The position numbers and the translations under genes are program-made. Shown piece after piece: positions 35,471-48,174 of a stretch of 64,000 nucleotides of DNA; within the stretch, counting starts at the first letter, position 1, and every line of letters begins with the position of its first letter. The stretch comes from Coprothermobacter proteolyticus DSM 5265 (lineage in GTDB: Bacteria > Coprothermobacterota > Coprothermobacteria > Coprothermobacterales > Coprothermobacteraceae). The stretch covers positions 682,001 through 746,000 of the forward strand of contig NC_011295.1 in the NCBI RefSeq assembly GCF_000020945.1, given 5' to 3'. Below the pieces are notes generated by a model. The model did not search any database. It saw only the letters and a program-made list of their open reading frames with translations, and was not told the origin of the DNA.

Positions 35471-37588
35471 ATGACTATCGTAGTACATAAAGGAGTCGAT
35501 CTTGACGCTTTCGGTTCTGCTTTAGCACTTGCACATGTGTTCGGTGGAAAAATGTTCTTGCCAGAACCCAAAAACAGAAATGTTGCTCGTCTTTCACATG
35601 CTGTACAAGAATGGGTAACGGATAGCGTTGAGGGTAACGTGATCTTTTGTGACACAGACAGCCTAGGAAACTGGAAAGCAGAGTTCATCTTTGACCACCA
35701 TGGCACAGTATACGGCGCAAACAGCAGTGCGGTAGCCATATGGCTTGAAGACTGCGGATATCTGCAGAAGATGTCTGAGAATGTTTTGGAACTACTCATG
35801 TCAGGCATATATGAAGATACTGGTTTTCTTCGATATCACTCAGCTAAGCCTTGGGACTTTGCAGCTGTAAGCTCCCTTAGGCGCCTAATGAAAAGGCCCT
35901 TCGAGTTGGATATTCACGTGAGTCCGCCTCTTAGTGAGTCACACTTCAAAGCCATGTTCAAAATACTTGAACGGCAGCATGAAATCAGACTACTGAGCAA
36001 GATCATAGATATCTCATATATCTATGAGAAGGAAAGTGAAGGGGAAATTTCTTCAGTGGTACAGCTACTACAATCCATGCAGGATATAAATGCTTACGTA
36101 CTTCTTGTGGGAAGCAAGAGTAGGATACTTGGCATATGTCGCAGTGACGAGACCGTGCCACTGTGGGATCTCTTGCAAGACCTTAATCCGAGTGGCCACA
36201 AGTATGCTTTTGTGTTCAGAAAGAGAGGCAATTTAATAAGCTTTTACGAGACCCTGCCCGATTTGCTTAGGTCAAAGATGTTAGCTCAAACGTTGGTGAC
36301 GGAAGTTAGCTTGTCAAAGATGGTTTTGTTGAAACCATGCAGCGTAAAAGAGGCGTTACGTTATTCTCGCGACTACGGTTTGGCTGTGGTATGTTTACAG
36401 GAGGAGCGTGGGCTCTATTTTATAACTAGGCACGACTTAGAAAGATTGGAAAGGTTAGGACTTGGAGAGAGTGATGTCCTCGGTTTTTCAAGGGTGTTAC
36501 CATGTTTTGAGCAGCAAGACGATTTGGCAAAGGCTTACCCCATTCTCAGACAGCGTATTCCTCTAGTTGTTAAAAAAGATGATGAGTTTTACATTGCAAC
36601 CACAGATGACTTGTTAAGGCAAGGTGTGGTTCAGTTTTATGAAAACCGCAGTGAAGTTATCAGGGTAGGAGAAACACTGTATGACCAAATTGGCTCTTTG
36701 CTTGAGCATCTTTCGAAAAAAGGGCTAAACGTGTATTTGGTTGGTGGCGCCATCAGAGATTACCTCTTAGGCAAGACACCTGACGATATTGATTTGTGCT
36801 TTGAGGGCGATATCGAGAAAATTTGCTTGGCTTTAGATGAGCTAGGTGTGGGCTATGATATGTTCGGTAAGACTTTATCAGTGAAATGTGAATGGAACGG
36901 AACTAAGGTTGAATTCACAAGAGCTCGCAAAGACTTGTACAAGAGCCCTGGGGTGTTAGCAGAAGTAGAGCCTGCTACCATATTGGAGGATTTGGAGAGA
37001 AGAGATTTTACCATAAACGCCATAGCTTTGCAGCTTACACCTGGTGTAAGTATTCTGGACCCATTCCAAGGGTTGGACGATCTAAAAGACAGAGTTATAA
37101 GACTTATAAAACCTTGGTCACTCAGAGAGGACCCTTCCAGAGCTTTTAGAGCTATAAACTACAAGAACAGGCTGAATTTTTCGCTGGATTCTCAGCTCAG
37201 ACAGGAACTTACAGCGGTCCAGGTGCAAGGCAAACCAGCGCCACGAGTGCTCATGGAACTTCGAAGCTTGCTTAGATCCTCTCAAGTGTTCGAAAACGTA
37301 AGAGATGTCATAAACTTCGATCTTATGAGGTTCTTTGGTAGGTCTTTTGTGTTTGATGAAAGGCTAATGTCCATGCTTGAGGAATTTCAGCAGGAGCAAC
37401 AAGTACGGACCATGGAAGTTAGAAGGATCTATGAACTGGTCACAGTAATCCTGGGTCTGGGCTTTAAGGATAGAGCAGAAAGAGAACGTTTTTTTAGGCT
37501 CCTCGGCGGTGCTGGCAGGCTTAAAGCTTTATCTGAAAAGTTGGAAGAGGAAGGGACCATAGGTAATCTACTTACGGATTGGCAGTAG
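35471..37588 (+). CDS. DHH phosphoesterase fused to a CCA/poly(A) nucleotidyltransferase
   Basis: A 705-residue fusion. The N-terminal DHH part (about 1-245) has VHKGVDLDAFGSALA, CDTDSL and IFDHHGTV, expected of a nanoRNase/phosphoesterase. A linker region (about 265-400) with repeated hydrophobic units may hold degenerate CBS domains. The C-terminal class II polymerase (about 415-700) shows VYLVGGAIRDYLLGKTPDDIDLCF, RRDFTINAIAL and the tRNA-binding part SLREDPSRAFRAINYK. All eight tRNAs here encode CCA, so it is more likely an end-repair, A-adding or poly(A) enzyme than an essential CCA builder. Related fusions are known in thermophiles. It has no obvious ribosome site. Confidence 0.85.
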   Translation: MTIVVHKGVDLDAFGSALALAHVFGGKMFLPEPKNRNVARLSHAVQEWVTDSVEGNVIFCDTDSLGNWKAEFIFDHHGTVYGANSSAVAIWLEDCGYLQKMSENVLELLMSGIYEDTGFLRYHSAKPWDFAAVSSLRRLMKRPFELDIHVSPPLSESHFKAMFKILERQHEIRLLSKIIDISYIYEKESEGEISSVVQLLQSMQDINAYVLLVGSKSRILGICRSDETVPLWDLLQDLNPSGHKYAFVFRKRGNLISFYETLPDLLRSKMLAQTLVTEVSLSKMVLLKPCSVKEALRYSRDYGLAVVCLQEERGLYFITRHDLERLERLGLGESDVLGFSRVLPCFEQQDDLAKAYPILRQRIPLVVKKDDEFYIATTDDLLRQGVVQFYENRSEVIRVGETLYDQIGSLLEHLSKKGLNVYLVGGAIRDYLLGKTPDDIDLCFEGDIEKICLALDELGVGYDMFGKTLSVKCEWNGTKVEFTRARKDLYKSPGVLAEVEPATILEDLERRDFTINAIALQLTPGVSILDPFQGLDDLKDRVIRLIKPWSLREDPSRAFRAINYKNRLNFSLDSQLRQELTAVQVQGKPAPRVLMELRSLLRSSQVFENVRDVINFDLMRFFGRSFVFDERLMSMLEEFQQEQQVRTMEVRRIYELVTVILGLGFKDRAERERFFRLLGGAGRLKALSEKLEEEGTIGNLLTDWQ

Positions 37589-37634: not shown

Positions 37635-38615
37635 GTGGCAAATAACGATGTAGTTGTAAGCGGTATAAGACCAACCGGTGTACCGCACCTCGGAAATCTA
37701 CGTGGTGCACTGCAGCAATGGGTTGATCTGCAGGAAAAATATCCGTGTTTTTACTTTATTGCCGATTGGCATGCGTTGTTCGGTCTTGAAGAACGTAGCA
37801 GAGAAATAAAAGAAAATACAAAGAAAGTACTTGCCACACTACTTGCAGTGGGACTTGATCCAGAAAAGAGCACCATCTTTATTCAATCGCAGGTGCCAGA
37901 GCACCTAACGCTTTTTACCATTTTTTCTGCCATAACGCCTGTGGGATGGTTAGAGCGTAATCCTACATTAAAGGACATGGTCAGAGCAGAAGAGCCTCTA
38001 CCTTATGGGTTGTTGGGGTATCCAGTATTGCAGGCTGCAGATATCTTGCTTTACAAAGGTACCATGGTTCCAGTGGGAAAAGACCAGCAGCCTCACTTAG
38101 AGATTTCACGTGAGATCGCAAGGCGGTTCAACAGTCTATTCGGTGTGGAGTTCTTCCCTGAACCTCAGGCTGTGCTAAATGAGTATCCCGTACTTCCTGG
38201 TACAGACGGAAGAAAGATGAGCAAGTCATATTCAAATGTGATCAGCATTGAAGACGACCATGAAACCGTAAGATTCAAGGTCAGACAAATGATAACAGAT
38301 CCTCAGAAGATAAGAAAGTCCGATCCCGGTCATCCAGATATTTGCTCAGTATTTCAGTTGGAGAAAGGCTTTGTGGACAGTGCTTATTCTAAAGACATTT
38401 ACGATCGTTGTGTTCAGGGGCTTTTGGGATGCGTTGAACACAAGAATATGCTGGCTGACATCATTTGGCAGTATCTTGAGCCCATACGGGAGAAGTATTT
38501 CTACTATTTAGAGCATGAAGAAGAACTCTGGAAAATAGCGTCCTACGGCAACGAAAAAGCTGAGAAGGTGGCAAAAGAGACCATGAGAGAGGTGCTGGAT
38601 ATTATAGGCTTATGA
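37635..38615 (+). CDS. trpS: Tryptophanyl-tRNA synthetase
   Basis: A 326-residue class I synthetase. HIGH appears as VPHLGN within SGIRPTGVPHLGNLRGA, and KMSKS as GRKMSKSYSNV. GTG 37635 follows TTGGAGGTG. Other family signs are GYPVLQAADILLYKG and PVGKDQQPHLEI. It precedes the two cmk-plsC genes and overlaps the first by 4 bases. Confidence 0.96.
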   Translation: MANNDVVVSGIRPTGVPHLGNLRGALQQWVDLQEKYPCFYFIADWHALFGLEERSREIKENTKKVLATLLAVGLDPEKSTIFIQSQVPEHLTLFTIFSAITPVGWLERNPTLKDMVRAEEPLPYGLLGYPVLQAADILLYKGTMVPVGKDQQPHLEISREIARRFNSLFGVEFFPEPQAVLNEYPVLPGTDGRKMSKSYSNVISIEDDHETVRFKVRQMITDPQKIRKSDPGHPDICSVFQLEKGFVDSAYSKDIYDRCVQGLLGCVEHKNMLADIIWQYLEPIREKYFYYLEHEEELWKIASYGNEKAEKVAKETMREVLDIIGL

Positions 38616-39316
38616 TCATAGCCATAGATGGACTAGCAGGTAGTGGGAAGACCACAGCTGGCAAAGGATTAGCCAAAGCCATTGGATTTCGGTTCATCAG
38701 TTCTGGGCAGTTATACCGATTCAAGGCATTAGAGCCTGATGTGGACCTTTTAGAAGCTATAAAGGAGCACAAGCTGAAAATTGAGTGGGACATAGAATGG
38801 GAAGGTAAAGGCATATCGGCGGAGCTACAGCGAGAAGAGATAGGCAGCAGAGCATCAGAAATAGCGTTATTGAGAGAGGTTAGGGATGAAGTAAACAACG
38901 TACTAAGGTTTGTAGCCGAAGGCGGGAACTATGTCATAGAAGGCAGAGACATAGGCACAGTAGTATTTCCCGAAGCTGGAGTGAAGTTTTTCCTAACAGC
39001 AGAAGAAGGGGTTAGGGCGAGGCGTAGAGCAGAGCAAGTAGGAGAAGAAGTAAACATAGCAGAGAGGGACGAAAGGGACAAGAAGAGGGAGATAGCGCCA
39101 GCCAAGGCAGCTGAGGATGCCATAATCATTGATAACAGTTATCAGAGTGTAGAAGAGACGATAAAGGAGATGGAGGGGCGCTTACCTAAGGACGAATTCG
39201 ACTTTCAACGTTTTTTGCAATACGTACTAGGTCCACCGGTAAGAGGGCTATTTCGTATAGAGGTAGTAAAAAGTCATCCTTTGAAGTATGGTCGCTGGAT
39301 ACTCACACCTAATCAT
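38608..39316 (+). repeat. Direct repeat of 709 bp, copy A
   Basis: This block is identical base for base, as far as I could align it by eye, to 39771-40479. It begins four bases before the first cmk-plsC ATG and ends right after the NH of the acyltransferase NHxxxxD motif. The offset between copies is 1163 bp. Confidence 0.93.
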
Positions 39317-39778
39317 GTTAGTGGGTGGGATCCTATCTGCTTAGCAGCAAAAGTACCTCGGCCTCTGCATTTCATGGCAAAAGCCGAGCTCAAGCACTCC
39401 TTAGGACCTCTTCTTTCGCTATTGGATATAAGCCCCATTGCTAGGAACAAACCTGACGTCAGAGCCATAAGAACTGTTCGGCATTTCTTATACGGCGAAA
39501 AGCTGGTAGTTATGTACCCTGAAGGTCATCGCCACCGAGACGGAACTGTGGGCGAGTTTAGGAATGGAGCTTTCTACTTCGTTCGCAAGAAAATGGCACC
39601 CGTGATTCCCGTTGTCATTAAAGGGTTGGAAAACCTCAGTTTCAATACCTTTTGGAACCGCCATGTAAGAATAGCTTTCTTGGATCCCATTTACCCTGTG
39701 GATGTAATCGGCATGAAAGAAGAGGAAATAGCCAGAATGGTGCGCGAACAGATTTCGGAGTGCTACAACAGCTTATGA
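38612..39778 (+). CDS. Cytidylate kinase - acyltransferase fusion, copy 1
   Basis: A 388-residue two-domain protein. The N-terminal CMP kinase (about 1-200) has the Walker A GLAGSGKTTAG, SSGQLYRF, EGRDIGTVVFPEA and the DERDKKREIAPAKAAED lid. The C-terminal PlsC-type 1-acylglycerol-phosphate acyltransferase (about 210-388) has TPNHVSGWD (NHxxxxD) and YPEGHRHRDG, the usual EG-containing second motif. Fusions of cmk and plsC exist in other bacteria. It overlaps trpS by 4 bases and the second copy by 4. Residues 1-235 match copy 2 exactly, the rest about half. Confidence 0.92.
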   Translation: MIIAIDGLAGSGKTTAGKGLAKAIGFRFISSGQLYRFKALEPDVDLLEAIKEHKLKIEWDIEWEGKGISAELQREEIGSRASEIALLREVRDEVNNVLRFVAEGGNYVIEGRDIGTVVFPEAGVKFFLTAEEGVRARRRAEQVGEEVNIAERDERDKKREIAPAKAAEDAIIIDNSYQSVEETIKEMEGRLPKDEFDFQRFLQYVLGPPVRGLFRIEVVKSHPLKYGRWILTPNHVSGWDPICLAAKVPRPLHFMAKAELKHSLGPLLSLLDISPIARNKPDVRAIRTVRHFLYGEKLVVMYPEGHRHRDGTVGEFRNGAFYFVRKKMAPVIPVVIKGLENLSFNTFWNRHVRIAFLDPIYPVDVIGMKEEEIARMVREQISECYNSL

Positions 39779-40479
39779 TCATAGCCATAGATGGACTAGC
39801 AGGTAGTGGGAAGACCACAGCTGGCAAAGGATTAGCCAAAGCCATTGGATTTCGGTTCATCAGTTCTGGGCAGTTATACCGATTCAAGGCATTAGAGCCT
39901 GATGTGGACCTTTTAGAAGCTATAAAGGAGCACAAGCTGAAAATTGAGTGGGACATAGAATGGGAAGGTAAAGGCATATCGGCGGAGCTACAGCGAGAAG
40001 AGATAGGCAGCAGAGCATCAGAAATAGCGTTATTGAGAGAGGTTAGGGATGAAGTAAACAACGTACTAAGGTTTGTAGCCGAAGGCGGGAACTATGTCAT
40101 AGAAGGCAGAGACATAGGCACAGTAGTATTTCCCGAAGCTGGAGTGAAGTTTTTCCTAACAGCAGAAGAAGGGGTTAGGGCGAGGCGTAGAGCAGAGCAA
40201 GTAGGAGAAGAAGTAAACATAGCAGAGAGGGACGAAAGGGACAAGAAGAGGGAGATAGCGCCAGCCAAGGCAGCTGAGGATGCCATAATCATTGATAACA
40301 GTTATCAGAGTGTAGAAGAGACGATAAAGGAGATGGAGGGGCGCTTACCTAAGGACGAATTCGACTTTCAACGTTTTTTGCAATACGTACTAGGTCCACC
40401 GGTAAGAGGGCTATTTCGTATAGAGGTAGTAAAAAGTCATCCTTTGAAGTATGGTCGCTGGATACTCACACCTAATCAT
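39771..40479 (+). repeat. Direct repeat of 709 bp, copy B
   Basis: This copy matches 38608-39316 exactly. The flanks diverge at once at both edges (position 39770 against 38607, and 40480 against 39317), a sharp boundary unlike gradual decay. Confidence 0.93.
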
Positions 40480-40941
40480 ACAAGCGCTTGGGATGGAGTG
40501 TGCCTTGCAGCAGTCTTGCAAAGGTCGGCTTACTACGTAGCAAAAGTGGAGCTTCGGCGCATACTTGGGCCTTTGCTCTCTATTTTGAATGCTGTTACCA
40601 TTGTCAGGGATACTCCAGACCTTAAGGCTATAAAGGCCATCCGTGCGTTGCTGACCAAAGAGAAGATCGTCGTTATTTACCCGGAGTCAAAGATTTTCAC
40701 TGATGGTATTATGGGGCCTTTCAAAGAAGGTGCTTTTTATTTTCTTCGAAAAAGAATGGCGCCTGTCGTCCCTGTGGTCATAAAAGGCTTAGAGAGAATA
40801 ACGGTGAATACATTTTTTACTCGGCATGTAAGAATAGCTTTCCTTGACCCCGTATACCCTATTGACGTATTTGGCCTTCGAGAAAATGACATATCTGATA
40901 AAGTTAAAAAGCTTATGGTGAACGCTTATGAAAGTATGTAA
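39775..40941 (+). CDS. Cytidylate kinase - acyltransferase fusion, copy 2
   Basis: Also 388 residues, with the same CMP kinase domain as copy 1. The acyltransferase part diverges after residue 235 without any gap in the alignment. It keeps NHTSAWD (NHxxxxD), but the second motif reads YPESKIFTDG instead of YPEGHRHRDG, losing the glycine and arginine expected for lysophosphatidate binding; it may use another acceptor or be weakly active. A longer open frame upstream (to 39652) only reads the end of copy 1 in another frame. It overlaps ispH by 14 bases. Confidence 0.9.
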   Translation: MIIAIDGLAGSGKTTAGKGLAKAIGFRFISSGQLYRFKALEPDVDLLEAIKEHKLKIEWDIEWEGKGISAELQREEIGSRASEIALLREVRDEVNNVLRFVAEGGNYVIEGRDIGTVVFPEAGVKFFLTAEEGVRARRRAEQVGEEVNIAERDERDKKREIAPAKAAEDAIIIDNSYQSVEETIKEMEGRLPKDEFDFQRFLQYVLGPPVRGLFRIEVVKSHPLKYGRWILTPNHTSAWDGVCLAAVLQRSAYYVAKVELRRILGPLLSILNAVTIVRDTPDLKAIKAIRALLTKEKIVVIYPESKIFTDGIMGPFKEGAFYFLRKRMAPVVPVVIKGLERITVNTFFTRHVRIAFLDPVYPIDVFGLRENDISDKVKKLMVNAYESM

Positions 40942-41776
40942 AAAGGAACTTCATTTGGCTTTCCCGCAAGGTCCCTGTTTCGGAGTAAAAAGGAGCATCG
41001 AGCTTTGTCGCAAGATCTTGGAAAAGCACGGAACTGTTTTTGCTGTTCACCCTTTGGTTCACAACGAAATTGTCATGGCTGACCTTGCAAAGCATGGGTT
41101 GATTCTGGAGGAAGACGTAGAGAAGATTCCTTCTAATTCCTGGGTAGTGCTATCAGCCCATGGTACGCCAAAGGATGTTTTGGAACGTCTGAAGGAGAAG
41201 AACTGTAAAGTAGTAGATGCCGTTTGCCCTTTGGTTCTTTTTGTGCACAAGAAAGCGTTGGAAGCAGTTAAGAACTTCGGTAAGGTCAACATAGTTGGTG
41301 ATTCACAGCATCAGGAGATAAGAGCATTGACTTCGGAGCTTCCGGAAGGCTCGTATGTACTTTGCGGACCAGAAGGTAAGCTGGCGGACAAGCGTTTCCC
41401 TGTAGTGTTTCAAAGCACCACAGATCCAATTATTTTGCACGAGTTAGACGCTGAAGGTTACCGCATTATGGACACCATTTGTACTGCTACCAAGGGACGT
41501 CAACAAGCAAATGCTCAGCTTATTGAAAATTGTGATGCTCTGATAATCCTGGGTTCTTCTACTAGTGCCAACAGCAGGCACCTGGCTGCAAAAGCCTCAG
41601 CATCTGGTAAGCCAGTACTCCTCACGCTTGATCTAGATGAGGCAGCGTCTTTTGCCCTGAACTATGATATCGTTGGGATCATAGCAGGGGCTTCAACACC
41701 ACTAGATCTGGTCTACCAAGCCTATGATAGAATAATTACCGCATATGAAAAGGTTTGTAATAATTGGAGCTCCTAA
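40928..41776 (+). CDS. ispH: 4-hydroxy-3-methylbut-2-enyl diphosphate reductase
   Basis: A 282-residue Fe-S enzyme, the last MEP step giving IPP and DMAPP. The three cluster cysteines are in GPCFGVKRS, DAVCPLV and DTICTATKGRQ. The conserved HPLVHNEIV and SSTSANSRHLA segments are present. The cmk-plsC-ispH-der arrangement resembles several Firmicutes. It overlaps der by 32 bases. Confidence 0.94.
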   Translation: MKVCKKELHLAFPQGPCFGVKRSIELCRKILEKHGTVFAVHPLVHNEIVMADLAKHGLILEEDVEKIPSNSWVVLSAHGTPKDVLERLKEKNCKVVDAVCPLVLFVHKKALEAVKNFGKVNIVGDSQHQEIRALTSELPEGSYVLCGPEGKLADKRFPVVFQSTTDPIILHELDAEGYRIMDTICTATKGRQQANAQLIENCDALIILGSSTSANSRHLAAKASASGKPVLLTLDLDEAASFALNYDIVGIIAGASTPLDLVYQAYDRIITAYEKVCNNWSS

Positions 41777-44438: not shown

Positions 44439-44487
44439 ATTTATAGTAACTATTCATGTTCAACCTGCAAAGGAGGAGGTGTTAGAC

Positions 44488-47400
44488 TTGGATGGAAAGC
44501 TTCTAAAAAGGTATTTGTCCCTAGTTTTAGTCCTCGCTATGGTAGTTGGTTTTGCTCTTCCAGTAAATGTCGGTGCACAGGAGACAGTAAAAATCACAGT
44601 ACTAGAGACTTCAGATGTCCACGGTCATATTCTGGCTTATGACTACGGTAAGGACAAAGAGGATCAAAGTTTTGGTCTATCTAAGGTTGCCACTTATGTT
44701 AATAAAGTGCGCACGGAAAACCCCAACACGATTCTTGTAGACAACGGTGATTATTTACAGGGCACACCGCTAGTTGAAAACTATCTTACAGCTACTCTAA
44801 ATCCCATGGCTGCAGCTATGAATTACCTGAAGTACGACGCAGTGGTTTTAGGAAATCACGAGTTTAATTTTGGTATGGAGGCTCTAAAGAAGTTTGTAGA
44901 ATCTCTTTCCGTACCAGTCATTTCTGCGAACGTGGTAAAAGCTGGAACTGAGGAGCCATATTTCAAACCGTATGTGGTCATTGAACGTTCCGGTGTAAAG
45001 ATCGGAATTCTTGGTCTTACCAGCTTAGTGGTTAAGAAGGTGGAAAAACCAGCGAACTTGGAAGGTGTGGATCTAATTGATCCCGTTGAGACGGCTAAGA
45101 AGTACGTAAACATCCTCAAAAATGAAGAAAAGGTAGATGTAGTGATTTTAGCCGGTCACTCCGGACTGGAATACGATCCAGAGACCAAGACCTACAGCAC
45201 TCGCGAGTACCCTGAGAACTTCATTTTCAACGTTGTAGACAAGGTTCCAGGTATTGATGCTGTTCTTTCAGGACACGATCACAATGAATTTGCGAAAGTA
45301 ATTACCACATCTTCTGGAGCAAAAATCCCTGTTGTTCAGCCAAGCTCTTGGGCGAAAGCTGTTGGTCGAATTGACCTTACCTTAGTTAAGGAAAACGGTG
45401 CATGGAAAGTTTCCGAGGCAGTTCCCACAACAGTTAAGATGAAGGATTATGAAGAAGACAAAGAACTTGTTGCTCTGATGCAAAAGGAGCACGAAGAAGT
45501 TCTCCAATTCATTCGGACTCCCATCGGAGAATTTAGTGAAGATTTCCCTGTCTTAGATCCGTTGACAGCTCGTATGTCTGATAATGCATACTTTGATATC
45601 CAGCTAAAAGCCATGGAATGGGCTGCCGGTACTGACATTGCCGTACAGGCCATACTCCCTACAACGCCGCCTACATTTACTAAGGGCCCCATCACAATCA
45701 AAGATGTAAACGCATTGTACATTTATGCCAACACGCTTTACAAGGTAAAAGTAACAGGTCAAATGATTAAAGATTTATTGGAGAATTCAGCAAAGTATTT
45801 TGTTTATGGCTATGATCCGTTAAACGGTGCAACCTTAAGCTCTGATCCGAATTTCCGTGCCTACAATTTTGATGGTGTATCGGGCGTCAGTTACCAAATA
45901 GATGTAACGAAACCTGTGGGAGAAAGAGTGGTTAACCTGACTTACAAGGGAGAACCACTGAAAATGGACGATTGGTATGTGATCGCCATTAACAACCACA
46001 GGTTTGAATCGCTACGCGACACTGTATTCAAAGGTGCCGAAAAGCTTTGGGAAAGTGACATTGATATTGCTGAGTACATCGTAAACTATATAAAAGAACA
46101 GAAGACCATTGCCCCTGAGACCGATCACAACTGGTCTATAACCCCAACTTATCTCTTATACAATGCTCCTGCTTTGGTAAACGATTATGCTACCTTGGAC
46201 GAAACTAAGACTCTGTATGCAGGATATCAAGGGCCTTCTGTTAGCCTGACCAGAGGAAGCGCTGCTTGCTTCTTCACACCCGTTTACATTACCGCAACCC
46301 CTAGCGGGGAGATACCAGAGTTTAAGGATCTTGACCCTAATGCAAACAGCTGCGTGAAGCCTTTGTTGCAGACGGGACTTTACGTTGGATATGGTGATGA
46401 CACTGTAAGATTAGAAGAAGGTTTGACCAGAGAACAGTCCGTTGTGGTTGCATTAAGAGGAATGAAAGCAGCAGAAACACTGCCAAATGCTGATGAGGCC
46501 AACAGCATTCTAGCCAACTATCCAGACGCTGAGGAGGTCTCCTCTTGGGCACGACCCTATGTAGCGGCTGCGTTGAAGTACGGTTGGCTCAAGACAAGGG
46601 ATGGCAAAATTGCTCCCAAGGACAGAATTACTGAAAGCGAACTTGTTTACATGCTTCACTGGAGCCGCTTCCCCAATGTGCGCATGCTCAGTATCAACGA
46701 TTTCCACGGCAACATAAGCACTTTCTATAATGACAGCAACCTGAAAGCTACGGTGGGCGGATACGAGACCATTGCTTGGTATGTGAACAAGTACAGGGCA
46801 GAGAACCCTCTTTATACATACTTCTTTGATGCTGGAGATTTGATGCAGGGTACTCCTACGTCAACCATACTTCACGGTGAGCCATTGATTGCACTGCACA
46901 ACGCTATTGGCGCCGATGCTATGACCATTGGAAACCACGAGTTTGACTGGGGTCTGGATGTGCTAAAGGAACGCATAGAACAGGCTAAGTTCCCCATAGT
47001 TTCTGGAAACATTTTTGATAAAGAGACAGGAGAACCGGTGGACTTTGCAAAACCCTATGCAGTGCTTGAAAAAGGCTTTCTTAGTGTGGGCGTTGTTGGC
47101 TTCACTACACCGGAATCTTCCATAACAGCTCATCCGTCTATTGTGGGCGGGTTGGAATTTAAGAGCGCCAGCTCCATACAGCCCTACATAACCGAGCTGA
47201 AAGATAAAACTGATCTTGTTGTTGTTCTCGCTCACGATAGTGCCTATCAAGATTCCAAGACAGGTTCCATAACAGGCCCATCTGTTGTGGATATTGCAAG
47301 CTATAAACCAGATGCACTGATTACGGGACACAGCCATACCCAGGTTGCTGGATTCATTGATGGAGTACCCACGGTGCAAGCTTGGTACAATGGGCGTCGA

Positions 47401-48174
47401 ATCGGCGGTATAGGGCTTCTTTACGATGCGCTGGAAGGCGAAACTCTGATGAAGACAGCAACTTTGATTGCTCCTAAGGTTACTTCAGAAACAACCGTTC
47501 CAGCCGTGGCAGAAATCATTGCAACATATGACGAAAAAGTAGGTCCAGTATTCAGCACTGAGATTGGGTACACTGAGAAGGGATTAACAAGGAACTACTA
47601 CGGCGAATCCAATTTAGGTGACTTCACTTCCGACATCATACTGCAGGCTGCAAGCAAAGCCATCGATGCTGTTGTGGATGCAGCTTTCCAGAATGCAGGT
47701 GGTATTCGCATCGACATTCCAACAGGCACAATAACTGTGGGCACCATTTGGCAGCTGATGCCATTTGACAACACGGTTGTTGTGATGGATCTTAAAGGCG
47801 CAGACATTAAAGCTCTGCTCGAGAGATCTTGCCTGAAGGAAGGCGAATCTGATGCAAATGGAGCTAGCAAGGGTCAACTACAACCTTCCGGGATCAGGTG
47901 GACTTGTGACATGAGCAAGCCCATAGGCGAAAGAGTTACTGCGGTCTCCTTTGAAAATGGTAAAGAGTTTAGCTTGGATGCAACTTACAAAGTCGCAACG
48001 AATGATTTCTTGGCAACTGGTGGAGACGGGTTCGCGGCGTTTAAGAACGGTACAAACGTTACCAACACCTTTGTTCTAGTGCGTGATGCAATCATTGAAG
48101 CCATAAAGCAGATGACTGAAGAAGGAAAGACTATTGACTACGAAGTAGTCGGCAGAATAACAATAATTCCGTAA
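44488..48174 (+). CDS. Exported double 5'-nucleotidase with internal SLH repeats
   Basis: A 1228-residue surface protein. The signal peptide (about 1-30) is KLLKR, a hydrophobic core and a VGA-QE cleavage site. Unit 1 (about 35-590) has metallophosphatase motifs SDVHGH, DNGDYLQGTP, LGNHEFNFG, LAGHSGLE and SGHDHN, then a 5_nucleotid_C domain. A spacer (about 605-730) has two S-layer homology-like repeats (FKDLDPNANS... and YPDAEEVSSWARPYV...). Unit 2 (about 730-1228) has INDFHGN, DAGDLMQGTP, IGNHEFDWG, LAHDSAYQ and TGHSHTQV, then a second C domain with NAGGIRID. It would hydrolyse nucleotides or cyclic nucleotides at the wall. TTG 44488 is set by AGGAGGAGG; the GTG at 44479 lies inside that site. 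Confidence 0.88.
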   Translation: MDGKLLKRYLSLVLVLAMVVGFALPVNVGAQETVKITVLETSDVHGHILAYDYGKDKEDQSFGLSKVATYVNKVRTENPNTILVDNGDYLQGTPLVENYLTATLNPMAAAMNYLKYDAVVLGNHEFNFGMEALKKFVESLSVPVISANVVKAGTEEPYFKPYVVIERSGVKIGILGLTSLVVKKVEKPANLEGVDLIDPVETAKKYVNILKNEEKVDVVILAGHSGLEYDPETKTYSTREYPENFIFNVVDKVPGIDAVLSGHDHNEFAKVITTSSGAKIPVVQPSSWAKAVGRIDLTLVKENGAWKVSEAVPTTVKMKDYEEDKELVALMQKEHEEVLQFIRTPIGEFSEDFPVLDPLTARMSDNAYFDIQLKAMEWAAGTDIAVQAILPTTPPTFTKGPITIKDVNALYIYANTLYKVKVTGQMIKDLLENSAKYFVYGYDPLNGATLSSDPNFRAYNFDGVSGVSYQIDVTKPVGERVVNLTYKGEPLKMDDWYVIAINNHRFESLRDTVFKGAEKLWESDIDIAEYIVNYIKEQKTIAPETDHNWSITPTYLLYNAPALVNDYATLDETKTLYAGYQGPSVSLTRGSAACFFTPVYITATPSGEIPEFKDLDPNANSCVKPLLQTGLYVGYGDDTVRLEEGLTREQSVVVALRGMKAAETLPNADEANSILANYPDAEEVSSWARPYVAAALKYGWLKTRDGKIAPKDRITESELVYMLHWSRFPNVRMLSINDFHGNISTFYNDSNLKATVGGYETIAWYVNKYRAENPLYTYFFDAGDLMQGTPTSTILHGEPLIALHNAIGADAMTIGNHEFDWGLDVLKERIEQAKFPIVSGNIFDKETGEPVDFAKPYAVLEKGFLSVGVVGFTTPESSITAHPSIVGGLEFKSASSIQPYITELKDKTDLVVVLAHDSAYQDSKTGSITGPSVVDIASYKPDALITGHSHTQVAGFIDGVPTVQAWYNGRRIGGIGLLYDALEGETLMKTATLIAPKVTSETTVPAVAEIIATYDEKVGPVFSTEIGYTEKGLTRNYYGESNLGDFTSDIILQAASKAIDAVVDAAFQNAGGIRIDIPTGTITVGTIWQLMPFDNTVVVMDLKGADIKALLERSCLKEGESDANGASKGQLQPSGIRWTCDMSKPIGERVTAVSFENGKEFSLDATYKVATNDFLATGGDGFAAFKNGTNVTNTFVLVRDAIIEAIKQMTEEGKTIDYEVVGRITIIP

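Follow-up and report, generated by a model that had tools for sequence, protein, structure and literature searches.

The window, i.e., the whole stretch of DNA that was analyzed, has a length of 64 kb and comprises bases 682001-746000 of the genome of the thermophilic bacterium Coprothermobacter proteolyticus DSM 5265, which consists of a single contig of 1,424,912 bases. It contains two adjacent genes of 388 codons each, which lie between trpS and ispH and encode fusions of a (d)CMP kinase and a PlsC-type acyltransferase (cmk-plsC). The acyltransferase domains are called AT1 and AT2 below. The features of the locus are (positions in the window):

37635..38615, + strand: trpS, upstream neighbour; stop codon overlapping with the start of gene 1 (ATGA)
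38608..39316, + strand: repeat copy 1, an exact repeat that consists of 4 bp, the kinase half, the linker and the start of the acyltransferase up to the catalytic His
38612..39778, + strand: gene 1, (d)CMP kinase fused to the PlsC-type acyltransferase AT1 (NHVSGWD, EGHR); 388 codons; TIGR00017 over the cut-off, PF01553 72.7 bits
39317..39775, + strand: remainder of AT1 behind the catalytic His, diverged; contains motif III EGHR (about 39521-39532)
39771..40479, + strand: repeat copy 2, exact repeat of 38608-39316
39775..40941, + strand: gene 2, identical kinase fused to the diverged acyltransferase AT2 (NHTSAWD, ESKI); 388 codons; PF01553 66.9 bits
40480..40938, + strand: diverged part of AT2, including the altered motif III ESKI; orthologous to the AT2 of the congener G001 (67%)
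40928..41776, + strand: ispH, downstream; 14-bp overlap with gene 2

The kinase reaches 150 bits with TIGR00017 (cut-off 135.55) and 158.6 bits with PF02224 (cut-off 26), and thus it belongs to the (d)CMP kinases. Both acyltransferases are well above the PF01553 cut-off of 23 bits and contain the NHxxxxD motif, which places them in this family; the TIGR00530 cut-off of 102.95 is reached neither by AT1 (70.5 bits) nor by AT2 (53.6 bits). No PF01553 acyltransferase other than AT1 and AT2 was found genome-wide, and a protein search of the genome did not retrieve a further copy of the kinase. The gene order trpS - cmk-plsC - ispH - der - murC is also present in G001, which is probably C. platensis, and in G004, a member of the sister genus, which has a single fused gene with the motif EGHR. 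Many distant genomes have adjacent but separate matches to cmk and plsC, a few have frames of fusion length, and a literature search for papers on a cmk-plsC fusion found none. The formation of phospholipids from phosphatidate uses CTP and sets CMP free, which can be recycled by a kinase. The fusion of a kinase with an acyltransferase makes sense because the kinase recycles CMP from phospholipid synthesis, and both fusion proteins may act in this way on the CMP that is released.

Two further proteins encoded in the window were noted. The gene at 44479-48174 encodes a protein of 1231 residues with two apparent 5'-nucleotidase-type halves (two DVHG/DFHG motifs), i.e., an internal domain duplication. 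The gene at 35471-37588 encodes a protein of 705 residues, of which residues 421-544 form a poly(A) polymerase/CCA-adding head domain; the long N-terminal part has no Pfam match above the cut-off, and in the relatives the length stays at 705-724 residues.

The repeat block and its edges

Sequence comparison revealed that 38608-39316 and 39771-40479 form a maximal exact repeat of 709 bp with 0 mismatches and a spacing of 1163. The first-pass annotation had described this direct repeat and the lack of any base difference over residues 1-235, and all its numbers hold. A perfect block of this length is far beyond chance. The identity opens with GCTT ahead of the ATG and closes after CAT, the codon for the His of NHxxxxD (residue 235); recomputation of the edges led to the same positions as reported before, four bases in front of the ATG and directly behind this His. 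Past the block, the two genes can be aligned without a gap, but only 80 of 152 amino acids (53%) and 260 of 459 nucleotides (57%) are identical, in agreement with the abrupt, gapless drop to about half identity that had been described. An odd base composition was sought in the block and was not seen, its GC content is 0.46 compared to 0.43-0.47 nearby.

The two edges have a different meaning. At the left edge the homology ends, with the tail of trpS in front of copy 1 and the tail of copy 1 in front of copy 2, and therefore this edge marks only the duplication unit. Both tails finish in GCTTATGA, in which the upstream stop overlaps the next start, and the start of gene 2 thus overlaps the stop of gene 1 in the same manner (ATGA). 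The position that had been given for the left edge is correct, but this edge is less notable than it may seem. The right edge, which is located inside the acyltransferase directly after the catalytic His, is the conversion boundary and the informative one.

An exact repeat of this length, assembled from reads of about 1 kb, might raise the suspicion that a read stack was duplicated or mis-joined. However, according to the genome paper of C. proteolyticus DSM 5265 this is a finished Sanger genome (10x), in which every repeat was confirmed by a PCR that spanned it, and thus an assembly error is unlikely. In addition, the two copies are followed by two distinct acyltransferases, and the second one is also found independently in front of ispH in G001. 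An assembly artefact, which the first-pass annotation had named as one of two cases that would overturn its reading, is therefore extremely improbable.

Age of the duplication and age of the identity

In the tree of the acyltransferases, AT1 pairs with copy 1 of the congener G002 (94%), and AT2 pairs with copy 2 of G001 (67%), with a support of 99.4/97. Forcing AT1 and AT2 together costs 72 lnL, and the AU test rejects this grouping (p=0.0002). These results point to an old duplication, as the acyltransferase halves group with those of the congeners and not with the paralogue. In conflict with this, the kinase tree unites the two C. proteolyticus copies to the exclusion of G002 (aLRT/UFBoot 84.6/90). 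Raw nucleotide difference counts were used to compare paralogues and orthologues of the kinase: The two kinase halves of C. proteolyticus have 0 differences at 705 positions, whereas copy 1 and its G002 counterpart have 37. For the latter comparison dS is 0.153 and dN is 0.029, the dS of the adjacent trpS is 0.184, and the kinase dS to a further congener, G003, is about 1.1. Had the two C. proteolyticus copies not exchanged sequence after the separation from G002, about 37 differences between them would be expected, while 0 were observed (95% upper bound about 3). A rough calculation under the assumption of equal rates would place the last homogenization in roughly the latest 8% of the time since that split.

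Therefore, the kinase half exhibits the characteristics of concerted evolution: The paralogues are closer to one another than the between-species orthologues are, the likeness extends to the synonymous sites (no base differs, compared to a dS of 0.153), and the acyltransferase tree places the duplication before the divergence of the compared species. The conflict between the two trees and the paralogue dS of 0 versus 0.15 support recent gene conversion of old duplicates that is confined to one domain. The first-pass annotation had proposed recent gene conversion or selection on the kinase half, and these results speak for the former and against the latter. The CMP kinase has a housekeeping role and a low dN, as would be expected if purifying selection alone held the two halves identical, but the synonymous sites of the paralogues are identical as well, in spite of the dS of 0.15 to G002 and of about 1.1 to G003. 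Because selection at the protein level leaves silent sites free, it is insufficient; as a sufficient cause it is refuted, and its probability is practically nil.

In G001, the acyltransferase in front of ispH is orthologous to AT2 (67%), and a run of 1725 N spans the interval between codon 25 in the first copy and approximately codon 204 in the second. Based on the layout in C. proteolyticus, a run of about 1700 N would be expected for two copies and of about 540 N for one copy. The main contig of G001 contains six N-runs, and in addition to that in cmk-plsC four others are found at places of C. proteolyticus repeats, namely a tandem 2.5-kb pair (twice), a 3.5-kb repeat, and a 0.7-kb tandem repeat. 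Some caution is warranted that the N-run might represent masked sequence rather than an assembly gap, as the second contig of G001 (1-1104) consists entirely of N. However, the location of five of the six main-contig runs at places of C. proteolyticus repeats fits assembly gaps, although it does not prove them. The two-copy layout appears to be kept also in this distant congener. As an indirect indication, the gap suggests that its kinase halves were probably also too alike to assemble, and homogenization may recur there. The congener contigs do not contain both kinase copies in fully readable form: G001 has the gap at the block, and the contigs of G002 and G003 end inside copy 1. The search for ispH in the G002 and G003 bins was negative, and searches for der yielded only weak, paralogue-like GTPase matches. 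In the best tree the acyltransferase of G004 is nearer to AT2, but this position lacks significance (AU values of the alternatives 0.11-0.84). The duplication may thus be confined to the genus (AU p=0.11), or it may be older and the second copy may have been lost in G004, and the trees are compatible with both.

We regard it as very probable that the locus is explained by an old tandem duplication, conversion of the kinase halves, retention of AT1 as an ordinary PlsC, and neofunctionalization of AT2. An ancestral cmk-plsC fusion between trpS and ispH would have been tandemly duplicated before the split of C. proteolyticus and G001. Subsequently, the kinase halves would have been overwritten by homologous recombination, i.e., by non-reciprocal gene conversion and possibly by unequal exchange between sisters, the last time so recently that no base differs between them. 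The tracts might begin in the well-matched kinase half and halt where the acyltransferases are too different to recombine. Alternatively, tracts that moved the active site of one acyltransferase into the other might have been selected against. Either limit would place the boundary exactly at the catalytic His.

A single recent event, without conversion between old full-length duplicates, would likewise produce an identical block and an old split of the acyltransferases, if the kinase part alone was duplicated ahead of a second acyltransferase that already existed on its own. On its left side the block indeed has a clean duplication edge. However, the spacing in G001 fits a full second kinase that was already there (1725 N versus about 1700), and the sequenced part of the AT2 frame of G001 begins within the linker between kinase and acyltransferase. 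Moreover, AT1 and AT2 resemble the single fused gene of G004 to nearly the same degree (60% and 59%), and therefore both probably stem from a fused ancestor. Taken together, a single event is improbable. Even less probable is a regulatory switch between one and two copies by crossover between the repeats. Direct repeats of such a size and spacing, here 709 bp at a distance of 1163 bp, are a plausible substrate for RecA-dependent deletion, and the earlier proposal that a crossover would delete 1163 bp and leave one kinase fused to AT2 is correct. The possible copy-number switching that had been suggested on this basis is without support. The deletion would be one-way and would lose AT1, one of the sole two PF01553 domains found in the genome, and the switch is disfavored because the only canonical-looking lysophosphatidate (LPA) acyltransferase would be removed. 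In addition, the two-copy layout appears to be retained in G001, and the features seen at the locus give no hint of regulation by rearrangement.

Motif III and the putative functions of the two acyltransferases

Motif III is YPEGHRHRDG in AT1, which keeps the Gly and the Arg, and YPESKIFTDG in AT2, which is devoid of both, confirming that AT1 has EG-H-R and AT2 ES-K, as had been read at first pass; the AT2 of G001 has EAKI. AT2 retains motif I (NHxxxxD), the Arg of motif II, and the Pro of motif IV. Both acyltransferases match PlsC of Thermotoga maritima (PDB 5KYM; PF01553) by sequence and share NHxxxxD with it, but AT2 differs by the loss of the Gly and the Arg of EGTR, and AT1 and AT2 each have a CMP kinase as fusion partner. 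For the EGTR Arg of the T. maritima enzyme, a role in binding the lysophosphatidate phosphate has been proposed, and the mammalian LPAAT-alpha is strongly inhibited by mutations of the Gly or the Arg of motif III (PMC6688108). This Arg, which characterizes LPA acyltransferases, is present in AT1 and absent from AT2. Because the Gly and the Arg are lost, AT2 is filed as a protein of the acyltransferase family and not as an LPA acyltransferase.

AT1 is likely the ordinary lysophosphatidate acyltransferase (PlsC) of the cell, being LPA-acyltransferase-like by motif only. Retention of the catalytic dyad together with loss of the phosphate-binding Arg suggests that AT2 is a neofunctionalized acyltransferase with a different acceptor, which is a guess from the motifs. 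The AT2 orthologues of C. proteolyticus and G001 have 50, 32, and 116 differences at the first, second, and third codon positions, respectively, and the excess at third positions indicates that AT2 is constrained and not decaying. A more far-reaching and rather doubtful possibility is that the two proteins form a two-armed bifunctional set, in which one kinase module, kept uniform by ongoing conversion, presents two acyltransferases with different acceptors. AT2 would then represent a new class with E[SA]KI in place of EGTR, the balance of conversion and selection would set the boundary at the His, and domain-limited conversion would be general for the tandem genes of this genome.

Similar gene pairs and known cases of concerted evolution

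A survey with a simple gene caller yielded 40 tandem paralogous pairs in the genome, and among them only the cmk-plsC pair combines a perfect block of such length with saturated divergence next to it. Two other pairs, one of secreted proteins and one of GT4 glycosyltransferases, mix near-identical and clearly diverged stretches. The GT4 genes (genome coordinates 389874-390992 and 391060-392193) have no difference at the aligned codons 140-180, while nearly half of the bases differ in the N-terminal 140 codons. Like cmk-plsC, they are in tandem and have one half that is nearly identical, with runs of zero difference, and another half that is about 50% different. In contrast to cmk-plsC, the conversion is patchier, the homogenized half is C-terminal, and the diverged half is N-terminal. 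Thus, domain-limited conversion seems to be recurrent in the genome of C. proteolyticus.

Long-lasting concerted evolution has been described for prokaryotic paralogues of 26 genes, including the tandem genes mtrA-1 and mtrA-2 of methanogens, and recurrent gene conversion was named as its cause (Wang and Chen, 2018; PMC6053082). As in these cases, the kinase halves belong to genes of a core pathway, and the paralogues surpass the orthologues in likeness at synonymous and non-synonymous sites. However, that survey treated conversion of whole genes and named cases of partial genes as future work, whereas in cmk-plsC one domain has been homogenized and the second, fused domain has diverged. The main text of that article does not include cytidylate kinase, acyltransferases, or Coprothermobacter. 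The mechanism is therefore already known, and the cmk-plsC pair is a good new example of domain-limited concerted evolution. Conversion and divergence have here worked naturally and cleanly on two domains of a single gene, and they are separated with base precision at an active-site residue, so that the balance of recombination and functional divergence can be tested. The locus also draws attention to AT2, a relative of PlsC whose acceptor motif has been rewritten. In addition, such blocks may break short-read assemblies, as one congener has a gap here and the contigs of two incomplete genomes end in this gene.

The pair of secreted proteins is encoded in tandem at 123586-126018 and 126135-128558 (genome coordinates). 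The two proteins have 807-810 residues, are patchily 62-100% identical, and by eye resemble substrate-binding proteins with SLH-type repeats. The flanks of two of the assembly gaps of G001 match this pair.
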